A DNA stretch of 64,000 nucleotides, taken from the NCBI RefSeq assembly GCF_030996345.1, contig NZ_CP118747.1, positions 543,501-607,500 of the forward strand, in the 5' to 3' direction. Made by a program: the position numbers and the translations under genes. This DNA is from Acidithiobacillus sp. AMEEHan (GTDB lineage Bacteria; Pseudomonadota; Gammaproteobacteria; Acidithiobacillales; Acidithiobacillaceae). This document shows positions 14,485-64,000 of the stretch, one piece after another. Under the pieces are notes generated by a model. That model ran no database searches, had not been told where the DNA came from, and was given only the letters and a program-made list of their open reading frames with translations. Position 1 is the first letter of the stretch. Each line of letters starts with the position of its first letter.

Positions 14485-15338
14485 TCCACATATTCCCAGG
14501 CATCTTCGCGCTGCAGCAGCAGGCGCAGAAGCTGATTGTTGAGGGCGTGCCCCGCCTTGTGACCAGAGAAATGCCCCAGCAACGGATGCCCCAGCAGGTA
14601 GAGATCACCAATGGAGTCGAGCACTTTGTGACGGACGAACTCGTTGGCGTAGCGCAGGCCATCTTCATTCAGCACGCGATAGTCATCGACAACGATGGCG
14701 TTGTCGAGATTTCCGCCCAATGCCAGCCCCATGCGTCGCAGGGTCTCCACTTCCCGCATGAAACCGAAGGTACGCGCTCGCGACACTTCCTTCAGATAGG
14801 AGGTGTGGGCAAAATCGACGCTGACTTCCTGGCCGCCATTGCGCACGACCGGATGATCGAAATCGATGGTAAAGCTGACCTTGAAGCCATCGAAAGGCTC
14901 GAGACGCACCCAACGGTCGCCATCGCGCATCTCCAGCGTCTTGATGATGCGGATGAAGCGTTTGGGAGCGTTCTGCTCCTCCACACCGGCACACTGGATG
15001 AGAAAGACGAAGGGCGCGGCACTACCGTCCATGATCGGCACCTCGGCACCGTCCAGGTCCACATACACATTGTCGATCCCGAGGCCAGCCAGGGCAGACA
15101 TCAGATGTTCGATGGTACCAACGCGCATTTCCCCATCGCCGATATTGGTGGACAAGCGCGTGTCGACCACATGCAAAGGATCGGCTTTGATGTAGGCTTT
15201 GCCGGGGAGATCACTACGATGGAAGACGATTCCCGTATTCACTGGCGCTGGGCGCAAACCGAGATACACCTTCTTGCCACTATGCAGACCAATCCCGGTG
15301 CCCCAGATCATGTTTTTCAGAGTGCGCTGTTGAATCAT
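14421..15338 (-). CDS. lpxC: UDP-3-O-acyl-N-acetylglucosamine deacetylase
   Basis: A 305-residue LpxC, the committed zinc-dependent step of lipid A synthesis in the cytoplasm. The zinc-site segments [22 protein letters not shown] and the catalytic-region [15 protein letters not shown] are present. Family landmarks [16 protein letters not shown] and VPIMDGSA are intact. Length is normal. In many proteobacteria lpxC follows ftsZ at the end of the dcw cluster. Here it lies about 20 kb away, facing dciA/secA. A promoter-like TTGTAA/TATCGT pair lies upstream. Its 3' end overlaps dciA on the other strand. Confidence 0.96.
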
Positions 15339-15388
15339 CTACCTTTTTGCGATCGCCGGGATCGCCCTCCCACGTTTCACTAGAGCTA

Positions 15389-15417
15389 ACGATACAACGA
15401 CTGTTGCGAAGTTACAA
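15389..15417 (-). promoter_or_regulatory. Candidate sigma-70 promoter for lpxC
   Basis: On the minus strand, TTGTAA (15417-15412) and TATCGT (15394-15389) are separated by 17 bases. The -10 lies about 50 bases before the lpxC ATG. Spacing is ideal; each box has two mismatches at most. It was found by eye and has not been scored against the background. Confidence 0.4.
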
Positions 15418-15576
15418 CTTTCTTCTGTCGCGCCAGTGTAACGCCACCCCTCAGGGCCGCGCAATCACATTTGACATCCATTCACGATTCCCCACCCATT
15501 CCTCCACACGTTCTGATACACTCATCATTCCAACACTGCGGCGAAACATTCCACTAGATATTTTGAGGACCCTTGC

Positions 15577-16197
15577 ATGGCAACACCGAGCAACAAGAAG
15601 ACCCTGATGACGCTGTATTCTGCGCAGGACTGCGTCTTTGCCCATCGCGTTCGCTTCGTACTGGAAGAGAAGGCCATGGAGTATCAGGTAGTCGATATCG
15701 ACTTCGCTGACAAGCCGGAAGACCTCTTCGCACTGAATCCCTACGGCGAGGTACCCACCCTGGTGGACCGTGACCTGGCCGTCATCGAATCCTTCTTGAT
15801 CATCGAATATCTCGACGAGCGCTTTCCCCACCCTCCCCTGATCCCCGTCGACCCCATCTCGCGCGCGCGCGTCCGGGTGGGACTGATGCAATTTGATCGC
15901 GACTGGTTCAACCCCTTATTCCGACCTGGATACAGCGAGCAGGACAAAGTCGCCGCCAAGGATTCCTTGCGTCGTTCCCTGGCTCAGCTCAGCACCCTGT
16001 TCAGCCAGCAACGCTACCTTTTTGGTGATGAGCTGTCCATCGCCGACTGCGCCTTGGCACCACTGCTGTGGCGCTTGCCAAGTCTCGGCATCGAGATTCC
16101 CAAGGGGGCCAAGGCTACCCGAGATTATGCGGAACAGATTTTTGCTCTGGAAAGCTTCCAGCGTAGCCTGACCCCGGCAGAAAAAGCGCTGCGCTGA
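15577..16197 (+). CDS. sspA: Stringent starvation protein A (GST fold)
   Basis: A 206-residue glutathione-S-transferase-fold protein of the SspA type. The N-terminal thioredoxin-like half has TLYSAQDCVFAHRVRFVLEEK, with NPYGEVPTLVDRDLAVIES as the cis-Pro loop. The C-terminal helical half has FGDELSIADCALAPLLWRL. SspA binds RNA polymerase during starvation and acid stress in enteric bacteria rather than acting as a transferase. The usual partner sspB is not next to it. Instead, an acyl-CoA synthetase gene overlaps its stop codon (TGATG), so the two are coupled. TTTTGAGGA upstream provides a ribosome site. Confidence 0.85.
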   Translation: MATPSNKKTLMTLYSAQDCVFAHRVRFVLEEKAMEYQVVDIDFADKPEDLFALNPYGEVPTLVDRDLAVIESFLIIEYLDERFPHPPLIPVDPISRARVRVGLMQFDRDWFNPLFRPGYSEQDKVAAKDSLRRSLAQLSTLFSQQRYLFGDELSIADCALAPLLWRLPSLGIEIPKGAKATRDYAEQIFALESFQRSLTPAEKALR

Positions 16198-17906
16198 TGG
16201 CACTTTCGGTAACCGGTCTCGATCACCTCGCGGCCGGGCTCTTCGCCCGTTGCCAGCGCGATCCCAGCGGAAATATCGCCTGGCAGCGGGTGGGGGAGCA
16301 GTTACTTCCCCTGCGCGCCGCCGACTTCGCGGAAACCGTGCGACGCCGGGCGCGGGCGCTATCCCGTCTGGGCATCCGCCGCGGGCACCGGGTTCTGCTC
16401 ATGGCTGCCAATTCCGTCGATTGGGCCATTCTCGATTTTGCCATTCTCAGCATTGGCGCGGTTACCGTGCCGCTCTATGCGAGCCTTGGGGCACGCGAAA
16501 TTCACTATGTTCTCGGTGACTGCAGCCCCAGCCTGATCCTGCTGCAGAATGGGGAGATCTATAACCGTCTGGAGCCCGCGGCCTGGGGGGTCGCGCCCAG
16601 CCATGTCTTTCTGCAGGAGCCCGCGATGGGGATGGCCACTTGGAAAGACTTGGACACCTTGGGAGGTGATGGGGAGGCGTCACCGGCGGTCCCTGCAGAG
16701 CCGTTGCGTCGGCAAGACCTCGCCAGCATCGTCTATACCTCGGGCACCACTGGCTGGCCCAAGGGCGTCATGCTGAGTCACGGAAACTTTCTCAGCAACA
16801 TCGAGGGCTTTTTGCACCTGGTACCGTTACGCGCTGGGCAACGACTCCTTTCCGTCTTACCCCTCAGTCATGTCTTTGAACGTGCCACCGGCCATTTTGG
16901 CGGTTATCTCCTGGGTCTGGAGACCGCCTATGCCGAACGGCCCGATACCGTGCTGCGCGATCTGGCCGTCACCCGTCCCGATCTGTTGATTGCCGTTCCA
17001 CGCATTTTTCAAGTGCTCTACGATCGCACTTTGCGGACCCTCAATGATCGACATGACTGGCTGGGGAAATTTCTGCGCCAAGGCATGGGGCTAGAAGGAC
17101 AGGCGCGGGCGAATTGGCAACAGGCGGTGAGCAGTTATCTGCTGCGCAAACGGCTGCGCAAGAAGCTTGGAGGACGGCTGCAATACTTCGTCTCCGGCGG
17201 CGCCGCTCTGGACCCGGCCATTGCCCGGTTTTTTCTGCAGCTCGGCTTACCCATTCTCGAAGGCTATGGCATGACGGAGGCGAGCCCGGTCATCGCCGCC
17301 AACCCACTGCACGCCATTCATCCGGGAAGCGTGGGTAAGCCCTTGCCCAATATCGAGCTGCGCATTGCCGAGGATGGCGAGATCCTCGTCCGTGGTCCTT
17401 CCATCATGCAGGGCTACTGGAACAACGACACCGCAACCCACGAGACCATCGTGGAGGGCTGGTTACACACCGGTGACGTGGGCGAACTGGATGCCGATGG
17501 ATATTTGCACCTCACCGAGCGCAAAAAAGAGATCATCGTCAACAGTGCCGGGGAAAACATCGCGCCACAAAAAATCGAGATGCGCCTGTGCAGCCAGCCG
17601 CTCATTTCCCAAGCAGTCGTCTTCGGCGATCATCTTCCCTACCTGATCGCGTTGCTCTACCCCGATCCGGAGATCGTGCGCGACACTTTGGGGGAAAATC
17701 CCGATGCACGGCAGCTCGAACAGGCCCTCCGCCAAGCCGTCGATCACGCCCTGCATGGCCTGCCGAGCTTTGAGCAGGTGCGGCGCTTCGCCATCTTGCG
17801 TGAACCTTTGAGTGAAAGCGCCGGCACCCTCACACCCACCCTGAAGGTGAAACGGCGCCGGGTCGCCGAACGCTACGCCGCAGAGCTCACCGCCCTGCAG
17901 CGCTGA
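16197..17906 (+). CDS. Long-chain acyl-CoA synthetase (AMP-binding)
   Basis: A 569-residue adenylate-forming enzyme that activates a fatty acid as acyl-AMP and then acyl-CoA. The P-loop motif YTSGTTGWPKG lies near residues 180-190. GYGMTEASPVI is motif II, and WLHTGDVGELD with ERKKEIIV forms the hinge. The lid-domain lysine region near TLKVKRRRV at the C-terminus is also seen. It resembles the FadD15-type synthetases found in many proteobacteria. It starts on the sspA stop and ends inside a perfect inverted repeat. The substrate chain length cannot be read; membrane lipid recycling is a reasonable inference. Confidence 0.88.
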   Translation: MALSVTGLDHLAAGLFARCQRDPSGNIAWQRVGEQLLPLRAADFAETVRRRARALSRLGIRRGHRVLLMAANSVDWAILDFAILSIGAVTVPLYASLGAREIHYVLGDCSPSLILLQNGEIYNRLEPAAWGVAPSHVFLQEPAMGMATWKDLDTLGGDGEASPAVPAEPLRRQDLASIVYTSGTTGWPKGVMLSHGNFLSNIEGFLHLVPLRAGQRLLSVLPLSHVFERATGHFGGYLLGLETAYAERPDTVLRDLAVTRPDLLIAVPRIFQVLYDRTLRTLNDRHDWLGKFLRQGMGLEGQARANWQQAVSSYLLRKRLRKKLGGRLQYFVSGGAALDPAIARFFLQLGLPILEGYGMTEASPVIAANPLHAIHPGSVGKPLPNIELRIAEDGEILVRGPSIMQGYWNNDTATHETIVEGWLHTGDVGELDADGYLHLTERKKEIIVNSAGENIAPQKIEMRLCSQPLISQAVVFGDHLPYLIALLYPDPEIVRDTLGENPDARQLEQALRQAVDHALHGLPSFEQVRRFAILREPLSESAGTLTPTLKVKRRRVAERYAAELTALQR

Positions 17907-17920
17907 TCCAGCGCTGCAGG
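17894..17920. terminator. Perfect 12-bp inverted repeat between convergent genes
   Basis: CCTGCAGCGCTG (17894-17905), loop ATC, then its exact reverse complement (17909-17920). It spans the stop of the acyl-CoA synthetase gene and touches the stop side of the small minus-strand gene. No T-run follows on either strand. A bidirectional terminator or 3' RNA-protecting hairpin is likely. Confidence 0.6.
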
Positions 17921-57900: not shown

Positions 57901-58986
57901 CTATCCTTCCAGCGGCACAATATCGTCAGCAGAGATCGACAGAGTAACCTCGCTGCCTACGTCCCTCGAACGGTGGCCTGCGCTGCTGTCCGCAACCAGA
58001 AGATCCGGGTGATCGGCTATCGCCACGACGTAATCAGTCCGCGCACCCTGGTAAAGGCGCTCCTTGATTACGCCGTTTAGGTTAATATGTTTTTCTCTCT
58101 GGGAGATAGAAACGGAGAACTTGATATTTTCCGGATGCATCATTACGTGGTGCGCGGGTCTGGATGTTTTAAGCCAATCGCCTAGATCCTCTTGTCGGAG
58201 GATATTAGGCAAGCCAAGGAAGCGCGCGACGAAGACGCTTTTCGGACGCTCATAAACCTCATGGACCTGTCCAACCTGCCGCAGTCTACCTTGTTGCATA
58301 ATGCCCACATGGTCGCTCATGATCATTGCCTCACTCTGATCATGAGTTACAAATATGAATGTCGTACCTAGACTTTTTTGAAGGCGCAGCAATTCTACCT
58401 GCAACTCGCGGCGCAGCTTAGCGTCTAGCGCCGAGAGCGGCTCGTCTAGTAGTAGAACTTCAGGCTCGTTGATCAACGCACGTGCAAGCGCGACCCGCTG
58501 TTTCTGTCCCCCGGACAATTGTGCTGGCATATATTGAGCGAAAGATCCGAGTTGCATTGATTCGAGTATGGCATTGACCAGGTGGGCTCTTTTAGCAGAT
58601 TTAATAGCGCGCATGCGCAGGCCAAACTCGACATTTTGATATACCGTTAGATGTGGAAATAAAACATACGACTGAAAAACCGTATTTATTGGCCTTCTAA
58701 ATGCCGGAACGTCAACGATTGATTGACCGTTGAGGAATATATCGCCGGCGCTTGGTTTCTCAAATCCAGCGATCATCCGTAAAAGGGTGGTCTTTCCGCA
58801 TCCTGATGGACCGAGTAGGGTGAAAAACGAACCGGCAGGTATGTGCAACGTCACGTCTTCAGTTGCCACGTAACCATTCGCATAAGTCTTCTGTAGGTCC
58901 CGCAAGTATATGCTGCCATGCGCATCTTGAGCATTGCGAAGGTGTGTGATCAGAGTATCGTTTGACTTGGTAGCTAGTTCCAGCAC
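57901..58986 (-). CDS. potG: Polyamine ABC transporter ATPase (PotG/PotA-like)
   Basis: A 361-residue ABC ATPase. LLGPSGCGKTTLLRMIAG is Walker A. QLSGGQKQRVALARAL is the signature, LLLDEPLSALDAKLR Walker B, and FVTHDQSEAM the switch His. A C-terminal regulatory TOBE-like domain follows (residues about 250-361). The frame starts with GTG 58986, with AGGAA a short way upstream. It is the first gene of the minus-strand island and has a sigma-54-like motif about 40 bases upstream. Confidence 0.93.
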   Translation of the reverse strand: MLELATKSNDTLITHLRNAQDAHGSIYLRDLQKTYANGYVATEDVTLHIPAGSFFTLLGPSGCGKTTLLRMIAGFEKPSAGDIFLNGQSIVDVPAFRRPINTVFQSYVLFPHLTVYQNVEFGLRMRAIKSAKRAHLVNAILESMQLGSFAQYMPAQLSGGQKQRVALARALINEPEVLLLDEPLSALDAKLRRELQVELLRLQKSLGTTFIFVTHDQSEAMIMSDHVGIMQQGRLRQVGQVHEVYERPKSVFVARFLGLPNILRQEDLGDWLKTSRPAHHVMMHPENIKFSVSISQREKHINLNGVIKERLYQGARTDYVVAIADHPDLLVADSSAGHRSRDVGSEVTLSISADDIVPLEG

Positions 58987-59022
58987 AACTCATTCCTGCA
59001 ATCGTCGTCTGTCTAATATTCT

Positions 59023-59040
59023 AAGCATAACCTATGCCAA
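59023..59040 (-). promoter_or_regulatory. Sigma-54-like promoter upstream of potG
   Basis: On the minus strand, TTGGCATAGGTTATGCTT has GG and GC separated by exactly 10 bases, with the TGGC and TGC cores of the -24/-12 consensus. The expected start point leaves a leader of about 27 bases before the potG GTG. Confidence 0.55.
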
Positions 59041-59059
59041 GTGCCGCGTGCTGTTTAGC

Positions 59060-59555
59060 TTCTGATTTGGGTGGTTTGCAGAACGGTAAGCCTCGTAGTG
59101 GTGCAGGAATGCCTTCTAATGGTGCGATTTGCCCCGAAACGGAACAACGGATGTGGGTCTAGTGGTTGGCAGTGAATGTGTTCCAACGGATCGATCAGGT
59201 GACACTGGCGCTTGTTCCTGCGCAATCAAGGCGTGTTTGGAACTGACGATTCCTCGTCGGTAGGACTGTCTGATCGGACGAGGCTGAGCGGCGAAAGTGG
59301 CGTGGCGTGTCTCGACGCTGTCGCGGGCGGATAGCGTGCTTCTGGTGATAGCTGAAGCCAAGGGGATAGAGCCCCCGCTTACGATGCCCTCACCGTTGCT
59401 TTTTCCTCAGCACGGTGCGATGATCGCGCTTTCTTGCGCAAGGTATCTGCCTATTGCTTCCTGCTCCACCCACAGCCCGCGACATGAGCACGCGCACCTC
59501 CAGCAGGCGCTGGCGTCCTCGCGTAATCATGAGCATCTGCGATAAGGGGCCGTCG
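59060..59555. other. About 500 bases with no recognised gene
   Basis: The stretch between the potG promoter and the davA promoter holds only short open frames of about 80 residues on each strand, rich in Arg, Ser and His. None resembles a known family to me, and none has a good ribosome site. It could hold a binding region for a sigma-54 activator or a worn-out mobile element. I saw no RNA gene, array or clear repeat. Confidence 0.4.
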
Positions 59556-59558
59556 CGC

Positions 59559-59576
59559 GTGGCCTGATATATGCTT
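59559..59576 (+). promoter_or_regulatory. Sigma-54-like promoter upstream of the DavA-like gene
   Basis: GTGGCCTGATATATGCTT has GG (59561-59562) and GC (59573-59574) 10 bases apart, matching the TGGC/TGC cores. The predicted leader to ATG 59623 is about 37 bases. Confidence 0.5.
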
Positions 59577-59622
59577 GGTTGGCCAGATGATGACTATTGA
59601 CTCGGCCAGGGGAACAAGCGCG

Positions 59623-60459
59623 ATGATGAACCAGGACATGTCGGCAAACGTGCGGCGACGGAGTCCGAGAGTGGCGGCGTACCAATGTGCCCCATCTGTA
59701 ACGTGCAATAAACAAGAACGTGTCGATCTCATCAAGAGAGTTTGCGAAAAAGCCCGTGCGGATGCCGTCGACATATTGGTATTTCCGGAAATGTTTACAA
59801 CTGGTTACGCTATCGGGAGCGAGCAGGTGCGTTCGCATGCCGAAGAAAGTGATGGAGAGACTGCGGAGCGTGTGTTTACATTAGCCTCCGAATATCGAAT
59901 AACTATCGTCTACGGGTACCCAGAGTTGGATAAGTTCGGAAATGTGTATAATTCTGCGAACCTGATCTCGCCAGCTATCGGAATAGATACGTATCGTAAA
60001 TATATGCTGTTTGGAGACGTTGATAGGACACAATTTGTAGCAGGCAGGAAGATCCATAAGCCGATAGAGATAAACGGTGTAAAATATGGACTTGCGATCT
60101 GTTATGACATTGAGTTTCCTGAGTTGACGCGGGCCCTCGCTCGGGCAGGTGCAGAGATCATTTTGGTGCCAACAGCAAATATGCGGCCTTACGATTTTGT
60201 TTCGGACATACTAATCCCAGCTCGTGCCGTGGAGAATGGGGTATTTATTGTGTATGCTAATTATTATGGAGATGATGACAGTTTTGAATACTTCGGGAAA
60301 AGTATCATCTGTGATCCATTGGGCAACGTCTTAAGTAAATCAGGTGCGGGAGAAAATCTACTAATGGCTGATGCTGATATAGAACAAATCAAGGAAACTC
60401 GCTTAATGAATAATTATGTCAATGATTCCTCAGTGTTTCCCGAAGCCATCGCAGGATAG
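59623..60459 (+). CDS. davA: Carbon-nitrogen hydrolase, 5-aminovaleramidase (DavA)-like
   Basis: A nitrilase-superfamily amidase of about 278 residues. The catalytic triad is visible: Glu 56 in LVFPEMFTTGY, Lys 126 in TYRKYMLFGD and Cys 160 in LAICYDIEFPE. ITIVYGYPE, LVPTANMRPYDF and VYANYYG agree with Pseudomonas DavA as I remember it. DavA hydrolyses 5-aminovaleramide to 5-aminovalerate. ATG 59623 has AGGGGAA eight bases upstream; earlier in-frame ATGs lack this. A DavB-like gene in the same region supports the assignment. The base composition is AT-richer than that of the chromosomal genes to the left. Confidence 0.8.
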   Translation: MMNQDMSANVRRRSPRVAAYQCAPSVTCNKQERVDLIKRVCEKARADAVDILVFPEMFTTGYAIGSEQVRSHAEESDGETAERVFTLASEYRITIVYGYPELDKFGNVYNSANLISPAIGIDTYRKYMLFGDVDRTQFVAGRKIHKPIEINGVKYGLAICYDIEFPELTRALARAGAEIILVPTANMRPYDFVSDILIPARAVENGVFIVYANYYGDDDSFEYFGKSIICDPLGNVLSKSGAGENLLMADADIEQIKETRLMNNYVNDSSVFPEAIAG

Positions 60460-60467
60460 GGTAAGGG

Positions 60468-60959
60468 ATGCAGAACCTGAGGTTTGCCGAGGTAAATTAT
60501 GATTCTGATGTCGACAAGCGACATCTACTTACCCTTCTGAATGAATATGCCACTCTGCCAATAGGCCAAGGAAAACCTATTGCGGAAGATAGGCTTAGTA
60601 GCTTGTGGGAAAATCTCGGGCGACGTCGGCTCTGGGTGCACGCGTTCTTGGGATACATTGATGTCGAAGCCGTCGCCATGGCGATAACAATTGAGGGATT
60701 TTCAACCTTTCAAGGAGAACCGTTACTGAACATACATGATTTTTTTGTCTCTGAACCATGGCAAGGAAGAGCGGTTGGAACAACCTTTCTAACACACGTG
60801 ATCGAATATGCCAAGAACTCTGGTTTCGGCAAGATAACCCTCGAGGTGCTCTCGGAGAATGTTCGTGCGAAACATTTGTATCGTCGGCTCGGCTTTTCGC
60901 CATACAGTAATCCCATTGGCGGCTCAGCAGAATTTTGGCAAAAGTGGCTCGGCAAGTAG
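60468..60959 (+). CDS. GNAT-family N-acetyltransferase
   Basis: A 163-residue acetyltransferase. The core has PLLNIHDFFVSEPWQGRAVGT, where the W-x-G-R-A-V-G-T segment is the acetyl-CoA loop. ITLEVLSENVRAKHLYRRLGF is the C-terminal motif B. It lies 8 bases after the DavA-like gene and is probably co-transcribed. It could acetylate lysine, 5-aminovalerate or a polyamine; nothing in the sequence decides this. The family call is firm. Confidence 0.85.
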   Translation: MQNLRFAEVNYDSDVDKRHLLTLLNEYATLPIGQGKPIAEDRLSSLWENLGRRRLWVHAFLGYIDVEAVAMAITIEGFSTFQGEPLLNIHDFFVSEPWQGRAVGTTFLTHVIEYAKNSGFGKITLEVLSENVRAKHLYRRLGFSPYSNPIGGSAEFWQKWLGK

Positions 60960-61027
60960 CTAGCGACGGGTGTGAGCCAGCGCACCAAAGCCGTGCATGT
61001 TTTTTAGTCGGCTGTGCATGCCGCGAA

Positions 61028-61052
61028 GCGCTGCACTAACATAGTGCAGCGC
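61028..61052. repeat. Perfect 11-bp inverted repeat
   Basis: GCGCTGCACTA (61028-61038), loop ACA, then TAGTGCAGCGC (61042-61052). It lies 69 bases after the GNAT gene and about 130 bases before the sigma-54-like -24 box of the permease gene. No T-run follows. It may be a terminator for the davA unit or a binding site for an activator upstream of the promoter. Confidence 0.6.
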
Positions 61053-61182
61053 AGGTTTGCGTTGTTCTGGCCGGTATTCAGGGTATTCTAAAAATCATGG
61101 AGTGGCTCCCCAAAGGGGGCGTAACTTATTGATTACATGATCTTGAGTTGAGTGTTGGGACGTTATCGATGGGTGTTGGTAT

Positions 61183-61200
61183 GCGGCACGACCTTTGCTT
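61183..61200 (+). promoter_or_regulatory. Sigma-54-like promoter upstream of the permease gene
   Basis: GCGGCACGACCTTTGCTT has GG (61185-61186) and GC (61197-61198) 10 bases apart. GGCACG and TTGC equal the consensus cores except for the first T. The leader to ATG 61233 would be about 23 bases, with AAGGAG as ribosome site. Confidence 0.6.
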
Positions 61201-61232
61201 CGCGGTGTCGTAATTACTAAGGAGATTCCGCA

Positions 61233-62888
61233 ATGGCTACGACAGACAACATGATTCCTGAAACTTCAGTAAAACTCTCGCTTGCACGCGGGCTTAGACG
61301 GGATGGGACAACGATAGGTCTCCTCTTTGCGAGTTTGACAGGTATCGTCGGCTCAGGGTGGCTTCTCGGTCCAATGGAAACAGCGCAGGTAGCTGGACCA
61401 TACGGCGTTTGGTCGTGGGCCATAGGTGGGATATTGATTCTCTCCCTCGCGCTCTGTTATGCAGAGCTTGGGCCTCTCATTCCGCGCAGTGGATCGGCAG
61501 TACACATAAGCCGGGTAGGTAACGGTCCGATGCTGGCAATGGTGTGGACGTGGATATTGTTTTTGGGGTATGTCACCACCGCGCCCACTGAAGTGGTGGC
61601 AATAGTTACTTATGCGAATAACTACATTCCTGGCTTGCTCGCCGTGCATAGTTCATTGCTGAGCGGACTCGGCTTCATTGTAAGTGCAGGACTTATGATG
61701 CTGTTGGCGGCCATCAACCTGTTAAGGATTGGAACCATTCTTAATGTGAGTCGAGCGCTGATGGTGGTAAAGTTAATAATTCCATTGTTGACGATCGTTT
61801 TGTTTCTGAGCTTTGCGTTTCATCCAGAAAACTTGCACGTCGCCGCGGATCATCATGCTACGTACATGCAAGGCATGTTTTCAAGCATTGCGACCACAGG
61901 AATCGTGTTCAGCTACCTCGGCTTCCGACAAGCGGTCGAACTTGGTGGGGAGGCGAAACGGCCACAGGTAAGCGTTCCCGTGGGCGTTATTTTTTCAGTG
62001 GTTACGGCAATAATAATATATGTCGCATTGCAATATGCTTTTTTGCTTGGTGTAGATCCGAAATATGTTGCCCAAAAGGGGTGGGAAAACATCTCCTTCC
62101 CTGGTATTAATGGTCCTTTTGCTGCTATAGCCGGTATGATCGGTTTGGGATGGTTAGGATACCTGCTCTACGCGGATGCTTTGGTTTCTCCAGCCGGTAC
62201 TGCCATGATGTACACCACAACAAGTTCTAGAATCACGATGGCAATTGGCGAATTGTATCCCAAAAAACCAACTGGAAACCTTAGAACGATCAATAAAACT
62301 GGAACTCCGTTTATCGCTGTGCTTGCCGTTGTTGCCGTGGGGTTATTATTCTTGATACCGTTTCCATCCTGGCAAAAAATGACGACCTATGTCGCATCCG
62401 TAACGTCCCTATCGTACGGTCTCGGCCCTGTGGTACTTCTACAGATGCGCCGCGCAGCGCCGGACGTACATCGACCATTTCGCCTTTGGGGCGCCTCTAT
62501 AATCGCACCATTCGCGTTTATTGCAGCTAACCTAATTATCTTTTGGTCTGGCGTGCAAACATTGGATTTCTTGTTTGGGATGTTGCTATTATTCCTTTTG
62601 CTCGCCATCGCCTGGTTCTATATCACCAAGAGAAATCGCGAATTATCATTTGGCTGGAAATATGGGTGGTGGTTAGTTCCTTATTTTGGTGGAATGTGGG
62701 TTTTGACTAAGCTCGGACCATCATCGGCAGTCGGCGGGATCGGCTGGATTTCCTTCTACTGGGATATGGCATTCGTTGCGTTGTATAGTTTATTTATCCT
62801 TTGGCTGGCACTTCGTTGCGCGGTGCCTCATGAGGAATCGCGCGCCTATCTCGAGCAGCTTGGAAAAATGCCAGATCTAGGCGTTTGA
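61233..62888 (+). CDS. APC-superfamily amino acid permease
   Basis: A 551-residue transporter with about 12-14 membrane segments. The first helix carries LFASLTGIVGSGWLLGP, the glycine-broken APC substrate site. ALCYAELGPLIPRSGSAVHIS is a typical following loop, and FSYLGFRQAVELGGEAKRP a conserved middle region. The AAGGAG ribosome site is strong. It is followed after 1 base by the DavB-like gene, so import and first oxidation are coupled. Lysine or a related basic amino acid is the likely cargo by context. It differs from the permease at 53566. Confidence 0.86.
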   Translation: MATTDNMIPETSVKLSLARGLRRDGTTIGLLFASLTGIVGSGWLLGPMETAQVAGPYGVWSWAIGGILILSLALCYAELGPLIPRSGSAVHISRVGNGPMLAMVWTWILFLGYVTTAPTEVVAIVTYANNYIPGLLAVHSSLLSGLGFIVSAGLMMLLAAINLLRIGTILNVSRALMVVKLIIPLLTIVLFLSFAFHPENLHVAADHHATYMQGMFSSIATTGIVFSYLGFRQAVELGGEAKRPQVSVPVGVIFSVVTAIIIYVALQYAFLLGVDPKYVAQKGWENISFPGINGPFAAIAGMIGLGWLGYLLYADALVSPAGTAMMYTTTSSRITMAIGELYPKKPTGNLRTINKTGTPFIAVLAVVAVGLLFLIPFPSWQKMTTYVASVTSLSYGLGPVVLLQMRRAAPDVHRPFRLWGASIIAPFAFIAANLIIFWSGVQTLDFLFGMLLLFLLLAIAWFYITKRNRELSFGWKYGWWLVPYFGGMWVLTKLGPSSAVGGIGWISFYWDMAFVALYSLFILWLALRCAVPHEESRAYLEQLGKMPDLGV

Positions 62889-62889
62889 C

Positions 62890-64000
62890 ATGCGACGCGA
62901 AATAAATGAACGTAAGTACAATACGATATGCCCCGATTTTCCGTTCGACTACCTGCGCTGGATAACTTCGCCAGAAGGAGTTGTGAGTCTCCCAGCCGCC
63001 ACCTCTCGAGAGCGTGTTGCCGTTATAGGTGCTGGCTTGGCGGGTACCGTAGCTGCGTATGAGCTAGCGAAAGCAGGGCTTCGCCCGGTCGTGTACGAGG
63101 CCGGATGGATAGGCGGACGCCTACGTTCACACCGATTCGATGGCGTAGATGAAGACGTCATTGCGGAACTGGGGGGTATGCGCTTTCCGGCCTCAGCCTT
63201 ATTGTTTTGGCATTACGCTAGCATACTCGATTTATCTCGCAAGCCATTTCCCAATCCCATGTGCCCTGCTAGTGGAGCAACAATGATTGAGCTAATGGGA
63301 AACTTACATTATGGAAGTAAACTGGATGATTTCCCGGACCATTTTCGTCAGATAATGGATGCGTGGAGATTGTCCTTAAACCAACAAGGGTCGTTGGCCG
63401 AGATTAAACAGGCATGGAAAGATGGTGATGTCGCCAAAGTGAAGGATATATGGAATCGTGTGGTACAGGAATGGGATGATAGATCTTTCTACGATTTTCT
63501 TTGCGCATCACCCGCGTTCCAGGCGCTTCCATATGATTACAAAGAGATTTTTGGGCAGATCGGATTTGGAACTGGTGGATGGGATTCGGACTTTCAAAAT
63601 ACCATGCTAGAAATCCTTCGCGTTATCTACGCGGATTTTGATAGTGATCAATACTTGGTGCTTGGGGGCGCGCAACAGATAGCCCTAGGCTTGTGGAAAA
63701 AACCATGTAGCCCAGAGGGTCTATCGGTCTCTGATCTAAATCAAGGTGCCCCGCAGGGCAAGGTGAGAAAAATTTTTAGAGCGCGCGACAGTTCCAATAT
63801 CGTCGTGGAAAATGAATGGGGGAATTGTCAAAGTTTTGCTGCCGTCCTGGTTACCTGCCAGAGTTGGTTGCTGACTACATCCATTGATGTCGAGGAGAGC
63901 CTTTTTTCTGATCGTTTATGGATGGCATTGGATAGAACACGCTACATGCAGTCATCAAAAACATTTGTTCTTGTCGATAGACCATTCTGGCTAAATGATG
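62890..64000 (+). CDS. davB: Flavin monooxygenase, lysine 2-monooxygenase (DavB)-like, partial
   Basis: The frame begins at ATG 62890 and is open to the window end, giving 370 residues without a stop. The FAD motif VAVIGAGLAGTVAAYELA (GAGLAG at 47-52) is followed by GGRLRSHRF and ELGGMRFP, the amine-oxidase hallmark of the tryptophan/lysine 2-monooxygenase group. GFGTGGWDSDFQNTMLEI and ALDRTRYMQSSKTFV agree with Pseudomonas DavB as I recall it. The enzyme would turn lysine into 5-aminovaleramide with O2. Arginine is an alternative substrate. The C-terminal part is outside the window. Confidence 0.82.
   Translation, partial: MRREINERKYNTICPDFPFDYLRWITSPEGVVSLPAATSRERVAVIGAGLAGTVAAYELAKAGLRPVVYEAGWIGGRLRSHRFDGVDEDVIAELGGMRFPASALLFWHYASILDLSRKPFPNPMCPASGATMIELMGNLHYGSKLDDFPDHFRQIMDAWRLSLNQQGSLAEIKQAWKDGDVAKVKDIWNRVVQEWDDRSFYDFLCASPAFQALPYDYKEIFGQIGFGTGGWDSDFQNTMLEILRVIYADFDSDQYLVLGGAQQIALGLWKKPCSPEGLSVSDLNQGAPQGKVRKIFRARDSSNIVVENEWGNCQSFAAVLVTCQSWLLTTSIDVEESLFSDRLWMALDRTRYMQSSKTFVLVDRPFWLND

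Follow-up and report, generated by a model that had tools for sequence, protein, structure and literature searches.

A predicted NtrC enhancer upstream of a putative nitrogen-scavenging operon in Acidithiobacillus sp. AMEEHan

The binding sites of NtrC (NR-I) are well described in enteric bacteria, where they precede glnALG, glnK-amtB and astCABDE (PMC8743547, PMC4987338). The consensus of the box in Escherichia coli is TGCACCAnnnTGGTGCA (PMC8743547), and the enhancers of Salmonella are given as TGCACC(A/T)4TGGTGCA (PMC4987338). Closer to the present locus, an NtrC regulon of the Acidithiobacillia has been predicted by scanning, with NtrC boxes before nitrogen genes accompanied by sigma-54 sites (PMC12194929). 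The main text of that article does not contain the terms arginine, urease, glnA or amino acid permease.

Here, we analyzed a window of 64,000 nucleotides (the whole stretch under study) from Acidithiobacillus sp. AMEEHan. It contains a perfect dyad in the 273-bp gap between a GNAT acetyltransferase gene and an amino-acid permease gene (Table 1). This dyad is very probably an NtrC enhancer that drives a predicted nitrogen-scavenging operon, a reading drawn from the sequence and from the genomic company that the site keeps.

The dyad and the predicted sigma-54 promoter that follows it

Table 1. Features in and around the intergenic gap, in window positions.
Feature	Position	Strand	Remarks
Carbon-nitrogen hydrolase (amidase) gene	59575-60459	+	upstream of the enhancer; start codon uncertain
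GNAT acetyltransferase gene	60468-60959	+	
Weaker NtrC-like box CGCACCAAAGCCGTGCA	60981-60997	.	two mismatches; GCAC-N7-GTGC exact; 51 bp upstream of the main box
Dyad GCGCTGCACTA-ACA-TAGTGCAGCGC	61028-61052	.	arms of 11 bp, 100% complementary; loop of 3 nt
Predicted NtrC box TGCACTAACATAGTGCA, main enhancer site	61032-61048	.	12 of 14 fixed positions of TGCACCAnnnTGGTGCA
IHF-like site AATCAATAAGTTA	61122-61134	-	fits the IHF consensus WATCAANNNNTTR; between enhancer and promoter
Sigma-54 -24/-12 box CGGCACGACCTTTGC	61184-61198	+	GG 61185-61186, GC 61197-61198; one mismatch to TGGCACGNNNNTTGC
Ribosome-binding site AGGAG	61220-61224	+	before the permease start; seen in the sequence
Amino-acid permease (APC type) gene	61233-62888	+	first gene of the predicted operon
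L-amino-acid oxidase/monooxygenase gene	62890-64000	+	runs past the window

A preliminary description of this DNA had pointed to the perfect 11-bp dyad as an activator site lying some 130 bases upstream of a -24 box. Its sequence and coordinates proved exact, and we measured 131 bp between the dyad and the -24/-12 box, or 135 bp when counting from the 17-bp box within the dyad. That description was silent on the name of the activator, on the second box and on the IHF-like site. A search for the dyad at up to 3 mismatches gave a single site in the window and no site in 100 shuffles. The window has two perfect inverted repeats whose arms reach 11 bp or more and whose loops span 3-8 nt, for an average of 0.1 in 10 shuffled windows. 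The other of these two, at 17894-17920 (arms of 12 bp, loop of 3 nt, no T-run), spans the stop codon of an ORF of 569 aa (16197-17906).

The core of the dyad departs from the E. coli consensus at only two fixed positions, where T replaces C and, at the pairing position, A replaces G, such that the symmetry is kept. The pattern TGCACYN5RGTGCA, which describes this core, was found in 0 of 3000 dinucleotide shuffles of the intergenic stretch, which argues against a chance palindrome. Across the 57 genomes searched, this one included, the full 25-bp dyad has no further copy at up to 3 mismatches; what recurs is the type of the 17-bp core. A full form seen once in 57 genomes could be expected of a palindrome without regulatory role, and the same uniqueness led us to reject a dispersed repeat. 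We regard either of these origins, chance or repeat, as extremely improbable.

The promoter box has its GG and GC 10 bases apart, in a TGGCACG-N4-TTGC context with one mismatch. Among 3000 shuffled versions of the intergenic stretch, 12 had a box of equal quality on the + strand, and the whole genome has 128 sigma-54 sites with at most one mismatch, compared with 43 for the reversed pattern. The spacing of 135 bp places the promoter at a distance typical of NtrC enhancers (about 30-250 bp downstream).

The gap contains a second, weaker box, with two mismatches, whose distance of 51 bp from the main one amounts to about 5 helix turns. The motif GCAC-N7-GTGC is present twice in the window, both times in this gap. 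Since 1.4 occurrences are expected per shuffled window, it is their joint placement, not their number, that is notable: 31 of 3000 intergenic shuffles held at least one such motif and 0 of 3000 held two. The IHF-like site was matched, on either strand, in 20 of 3000 shuffles of the same stretch. The genome encodes both IHF subunits, each scoring over at least one curated cut-off.

The location of the dyad, which starts 68 bp past the stop codon of the GNAT gene, would also suit a hairpin that terminates the amidase-GNAT transcript or stabilizes the RNA at its end. The corresponding RNA stretches of 51 nt fold at around -25 kcal/mol on either strand, a value equaled by 1 of 200 and 0 of 200 shuffles. 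However, a Rho-independent terminator is recognized by a GC-rich stem with a T-run directly after it, and the T-run is absent on both strands. The preliminary description, which had noted that the three-base loop allows a terminator, had also seen no T-run after the dyad. We therefore rejected the terminator despite its stable RNA stem; the terminator scan made no call at the dyad either. The larger region of 141 nt folds no better than shuffles (z -0.42), and Rfam has no match within 58000-64000 at E values up to 5. Furthermore, a hairpin accounts neither for the fit of the core to the NtrC box nor for the sigma-54 boxes that accompany boxes of this type, as described below. A terminator or stabilizing hairpin as the function of the dyad is thus very unlikely.

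Regulators and similar boxes in this and related genomes

The regulators that an NtrC enhancer calls for, namely NtrB, RpoN and an NtrC with the NtrC-type helix-turn-helix, are all encoded in the genome. RpoN was identified by PF04552 (235 bits), NtrC by TIGR01818 (710.2 bits, for a cut-off of 558.6), and NtrB scored 302.5 for a cut-off of 240. The C-terminal 85 residues of NtrC match the solved DNA-binding domain of NtrC (1ntc), in an alignment of 80 residues (E 1.2e-12), and the end of the protein has the sequence GHKQLAAERLGWGRNTIARKMRSLGME. The genes ntrC and ntrB are found in one stretch with glnA and glnK-amtB. The genome encodes GlnA, two ammonium transporters, and a GlnK that exceeds the cut-off for one P-II model out of two. 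The earlier proposal of an activator site for a sigma-54 promoter is thereby given a name, since the core fits the NtrC box and rpoN, ntrC and ntrB are present.

The detailed scan for boxes in this genome covered selected stretches. Between glnA and the divergent porin-glnK-amtB genes there are two boxes with one mismatch each (212038 and 212069), 31 bp apart, and sigma-54 boxes face both ways. The box at 216286 (one mismatch), with a sigma-54 box at 216233, precedes ntrBC if ntrB starts some 30-40 codons past its first possible start. Such a later start is suggested by the match to the family, which begins at residue 49, and this box probably serves ntrBC. An exact box at 227144 stands by a sigma-54 box before the second amt gene, and a box with one mismatch at 225607 precedes a porin gene. 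Further genes follow the boxes at 223420 and 223463. Past the operon, on its downstream side, two boxes (621752, two mismatches; 621802, one mismatch) are placed between divergent genes. The exact boxes at 625451 and 2397853, two of the four in this genome, have no sigma-54 box within 260 bp. Among the observations that the preliminary description named as refuting it was the lack of any other copy near promoters. This applies to the full 25-bp dyad, which is unique in the genomes searched, but not to its core, which is repeated with one mismatch at most at the promoters of glnA, glnK-amtB and amt, and probably of ntrBC.

The same sites bear on whether another activator of sigma-54 (an NtrX-like protein, for example, or a regulator specific to the pathway) could use the dyad as its enhancer. 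The genome has 15 strong matches to the sigma-54 activator domain, two of which are apparent duplicates, and this provides other candidates. Yet, the box conforms to the NtrC type and boxes like it stand at glnA and glnK-amtB, and the 17.6 kb downstream, where part of the ORFs were scanned against family libraries, showed no obvious regulator. We thus consider an activator other than NtrC highly improbable. Two activator domains are doubled, with equal scores and the same offset, at 14729-17842 and 2550814-2553927, near both ends of the 2.55-Mb contig, which suggests redundant contig ends or a duplication.

The association of the box with sigma-54 promoters extends beyond this genome. Across 29 genomes of the family, we counted 72 matches to TGCACYN5RGTGCA, four of them in the present genome, and 3 matches to the reversed control; in 28 more distant genomes the counts are 29 and 7. 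The looser GCACYN5RGTGC with one mismatch gives 448 matches genome-wide vs 221 for its reversed control and is therefore little informative at this scale. We gathered 81 distinct TGCACYN5RGTGCA boxes in loci L001-L180 and searched within 260 bp for sigma-54 boxes with exact GG and GC and at most two mismatches. A correctly facing one, pointing away from the NtrC box, was found for 58 of the 81 boxes, and for 84 of 1721 random positions in the same loci. For comparison, the sigma-54 pattern read backwards was found at 3 of the 81, and wrongly facing boxes at another count of 3/81. At most one mismatch leaves 25 of 81 boxes, 32 of 1721 random positions, one of 81 for the backwards pattern and 3 of 81 for the wrongly facing boxes. 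A slightly wider bound brings the number of boxes with a sigma-54 box to 59 of 81 (56 of 72 in the family and 3 of the 9 others, from more distant genomes), and 23 of the 81 have none within 260 bp. The 81 boxes are not independent events, because orthologous promoters are counted more than once. These results show a strong link between the NtrC-type boxes and sigma-54 boxes of the correct orientation, in line with the activator site of the preliminary description.

The collection also puts the geometry of the present site in context. The spacing of 135 bp is inside the range of the others, as 58 of 59 intervals between enhancer and promoter measure 30 to 172 bp and 11 of 59 are of at least 130 bp. 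Where there is a second site, 22 of 36 spacings are at most 1.25 bp from a multiple of 10.4, for about a quarter expected, both figures having been picked post hoc with related promoters kept in. IHF-like sites are found in 2 of the 59 intervals, the present one included, while the background density (11 in 363,815 bp) predicts about 0.2. With so few intervals concerned, IHF as a general trait of these promoters is unsupported and the IHF step is weak; at this locus, the predicted site would possibly bend the DNA between enhancer and promoter.

The sixth position of the half-site is a C in 85 and a T in 77 of the 162 half-sites, in a search pattern that permitted C or T only. The 11-bp arms of the dyad are longer than NtrC requires, which counts against its reading as an NtrC site. 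Of the 81 boxes, 7, including this one, have outer arms lengthened by at least 4 pairs, when about 0.3 would be expected with random bases, and at least one of the seven owes its extension to overlapping repeats of the motif. Given this excess, selection may have favored arms that are extended symmetrically. One could also imagine a double role, in which the 17-bp core would be an NtrC enhancer and the extra 4-bp arms would form a hairpin to terminate or protect the amidase-GNAT message. Such an arrangement, which we deem unlikely, would couple the end of the upstream transcript to the downstream enhancer.

The predicted target operon

Starting at 61233, the genes encode, in order, the permease, the oxidase/monooxygenase, a ureohydrolase (agmatinase family), a second permease, and the urease proteins ureD, A, B, C, E, F and G, where the ureohydrolase, the second permease and ureDABCEFG are outside the window. 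They are tightly packed on one strand. The best solved relative of the oxidase/monooxygenase is 3we0 (E 3.2e-216). Arginine can be degraded through 4-guanidinobutyramide and 4-guanidinobutyrate to GABA and urea, the latter yielding ammonia. The upstream amidase and the genes of the operon fit this route, with candidate substrates. The label davA (lysine route), previously given to the amidase, is also possible. The operon likely serves to release nitrogen from a basic amino acid, and probably from urea as well, judging by its gene content. We infer its extent, its substrate and its response to nitrogen.

Past the urease genes, there are two divergent gene pairs with sigma-54 boxes in both directions (L066 8027-11238 and 13242-14908, that is, genome 615426-618637 and 620641-622307). 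One of them has NtrC-like boxes 50 bp apart, with two and one mismatches, and the other a box with two mismatches. The neighborhood of the urease genes looks like a nitrogen-scavenging island. Three porin-like genes, all on the minus strand (L128 6725-7786, L129 5834-7006, L066 8027-9181), adjoin ammonium transporter, glnK or urease genes together with NtrC-like and sigma-54 sites. Two of them were scanned and are both BBP2 (Pfam), the third being assigned by resemblance only. Their location suggests that these porins are nitrogen-regulated.

The oxidase has no match at E values up to 1e-20 in the other 28 genomes of the family, some of which are incomplete, so that one of 29 carries it. In the class, it was found in 3 of 274 genomes, this one included (E up to 1e-40). 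The best relative (57% identity, in genome G136) lies beside an amidase-like gene, as judged by eye. We also searched the 500 bp upstream (195 in L018) of 19 related permeases of the family genomes (46-53% identical, one per locus, L004-L022), and both an NtrC-like box and a sigma-54 box in the same direction, at up to two mismatches, were absent. The predicted control thus belongs to the present operon and not to the permease family generally. The lack of the oxidase in these 28 genomes and of the boxes at these 19 permeases makes cross-species footprinting of the site impossible. As the oxidase is unmatched in the rest of the family genomes searched, the genes of the operon may have been acquired, and then either placed under NtrC control or have arrived with it.

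Proposed mechanism and comparison with known systems

What the analysis shows is the set of sequence elements, their co-occurrence in related genomes and the existence of the regulator genes. Phosphorylation, binding, assembly into an oligomer and looping of the DNA are established NtrC biology, from which we infer the same steps at this site. At low glutamine, NtrB would phosphorylate NtrC, whose dimers would bind the strong box and, cooperatively, the weaker one. The bound NtrC would then assemble into an AAA+ oligomer, and the DNA in between would loop back, possibly with a bend by IHF at its predicted site. NtrC could in this way contact the sigma-54 polymerase at the -24/-12 box and open the promoter, which would switch on the genes for the permease, the oxidase/monooxygenase, the ureohydrolase, the second permease and the urease.

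While the mechanism itself is textbook, the analysis gives a name to an anonymous palindrome, as a regulatory site that can be tested. A further prediction is that general nitrogen control extends to an operon in which amino-acid oxidation, a ureohydrolase and urease are combined. NtrC control of such an operon is not described in the titles and opening abstract lines of the literature searched.

The site is most likely a new instance of a textbook element, a canonical predicted NtrC enhancer. Like the enteric sites, it has the 17-bp box core, lies upstream of a sigma-54 promoter with a nitrogen-related target, and possibly has boxes in tandem (PMC8743547, PMC4987338). It differs from them by the substitutions at the sixth position of the two half-sites (T replacing C, A replacing G), by arms that are symmetrically 4 bp longer, by the spacing of 51 bp between main and second box, and by its target operon. 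The promoter shares with those of sigma-54 (RpoN) the GG-N10-GC core and, with one mismatch, TGGCACG-N4-TTGC; a C replaces the T of the consensus as the first base of the -24 element. As in the predicted regulon of the Acidithiobacillia (PMC12194929), NtrC boxes here stand alongside sigma-54 sites before nitrogen genes.
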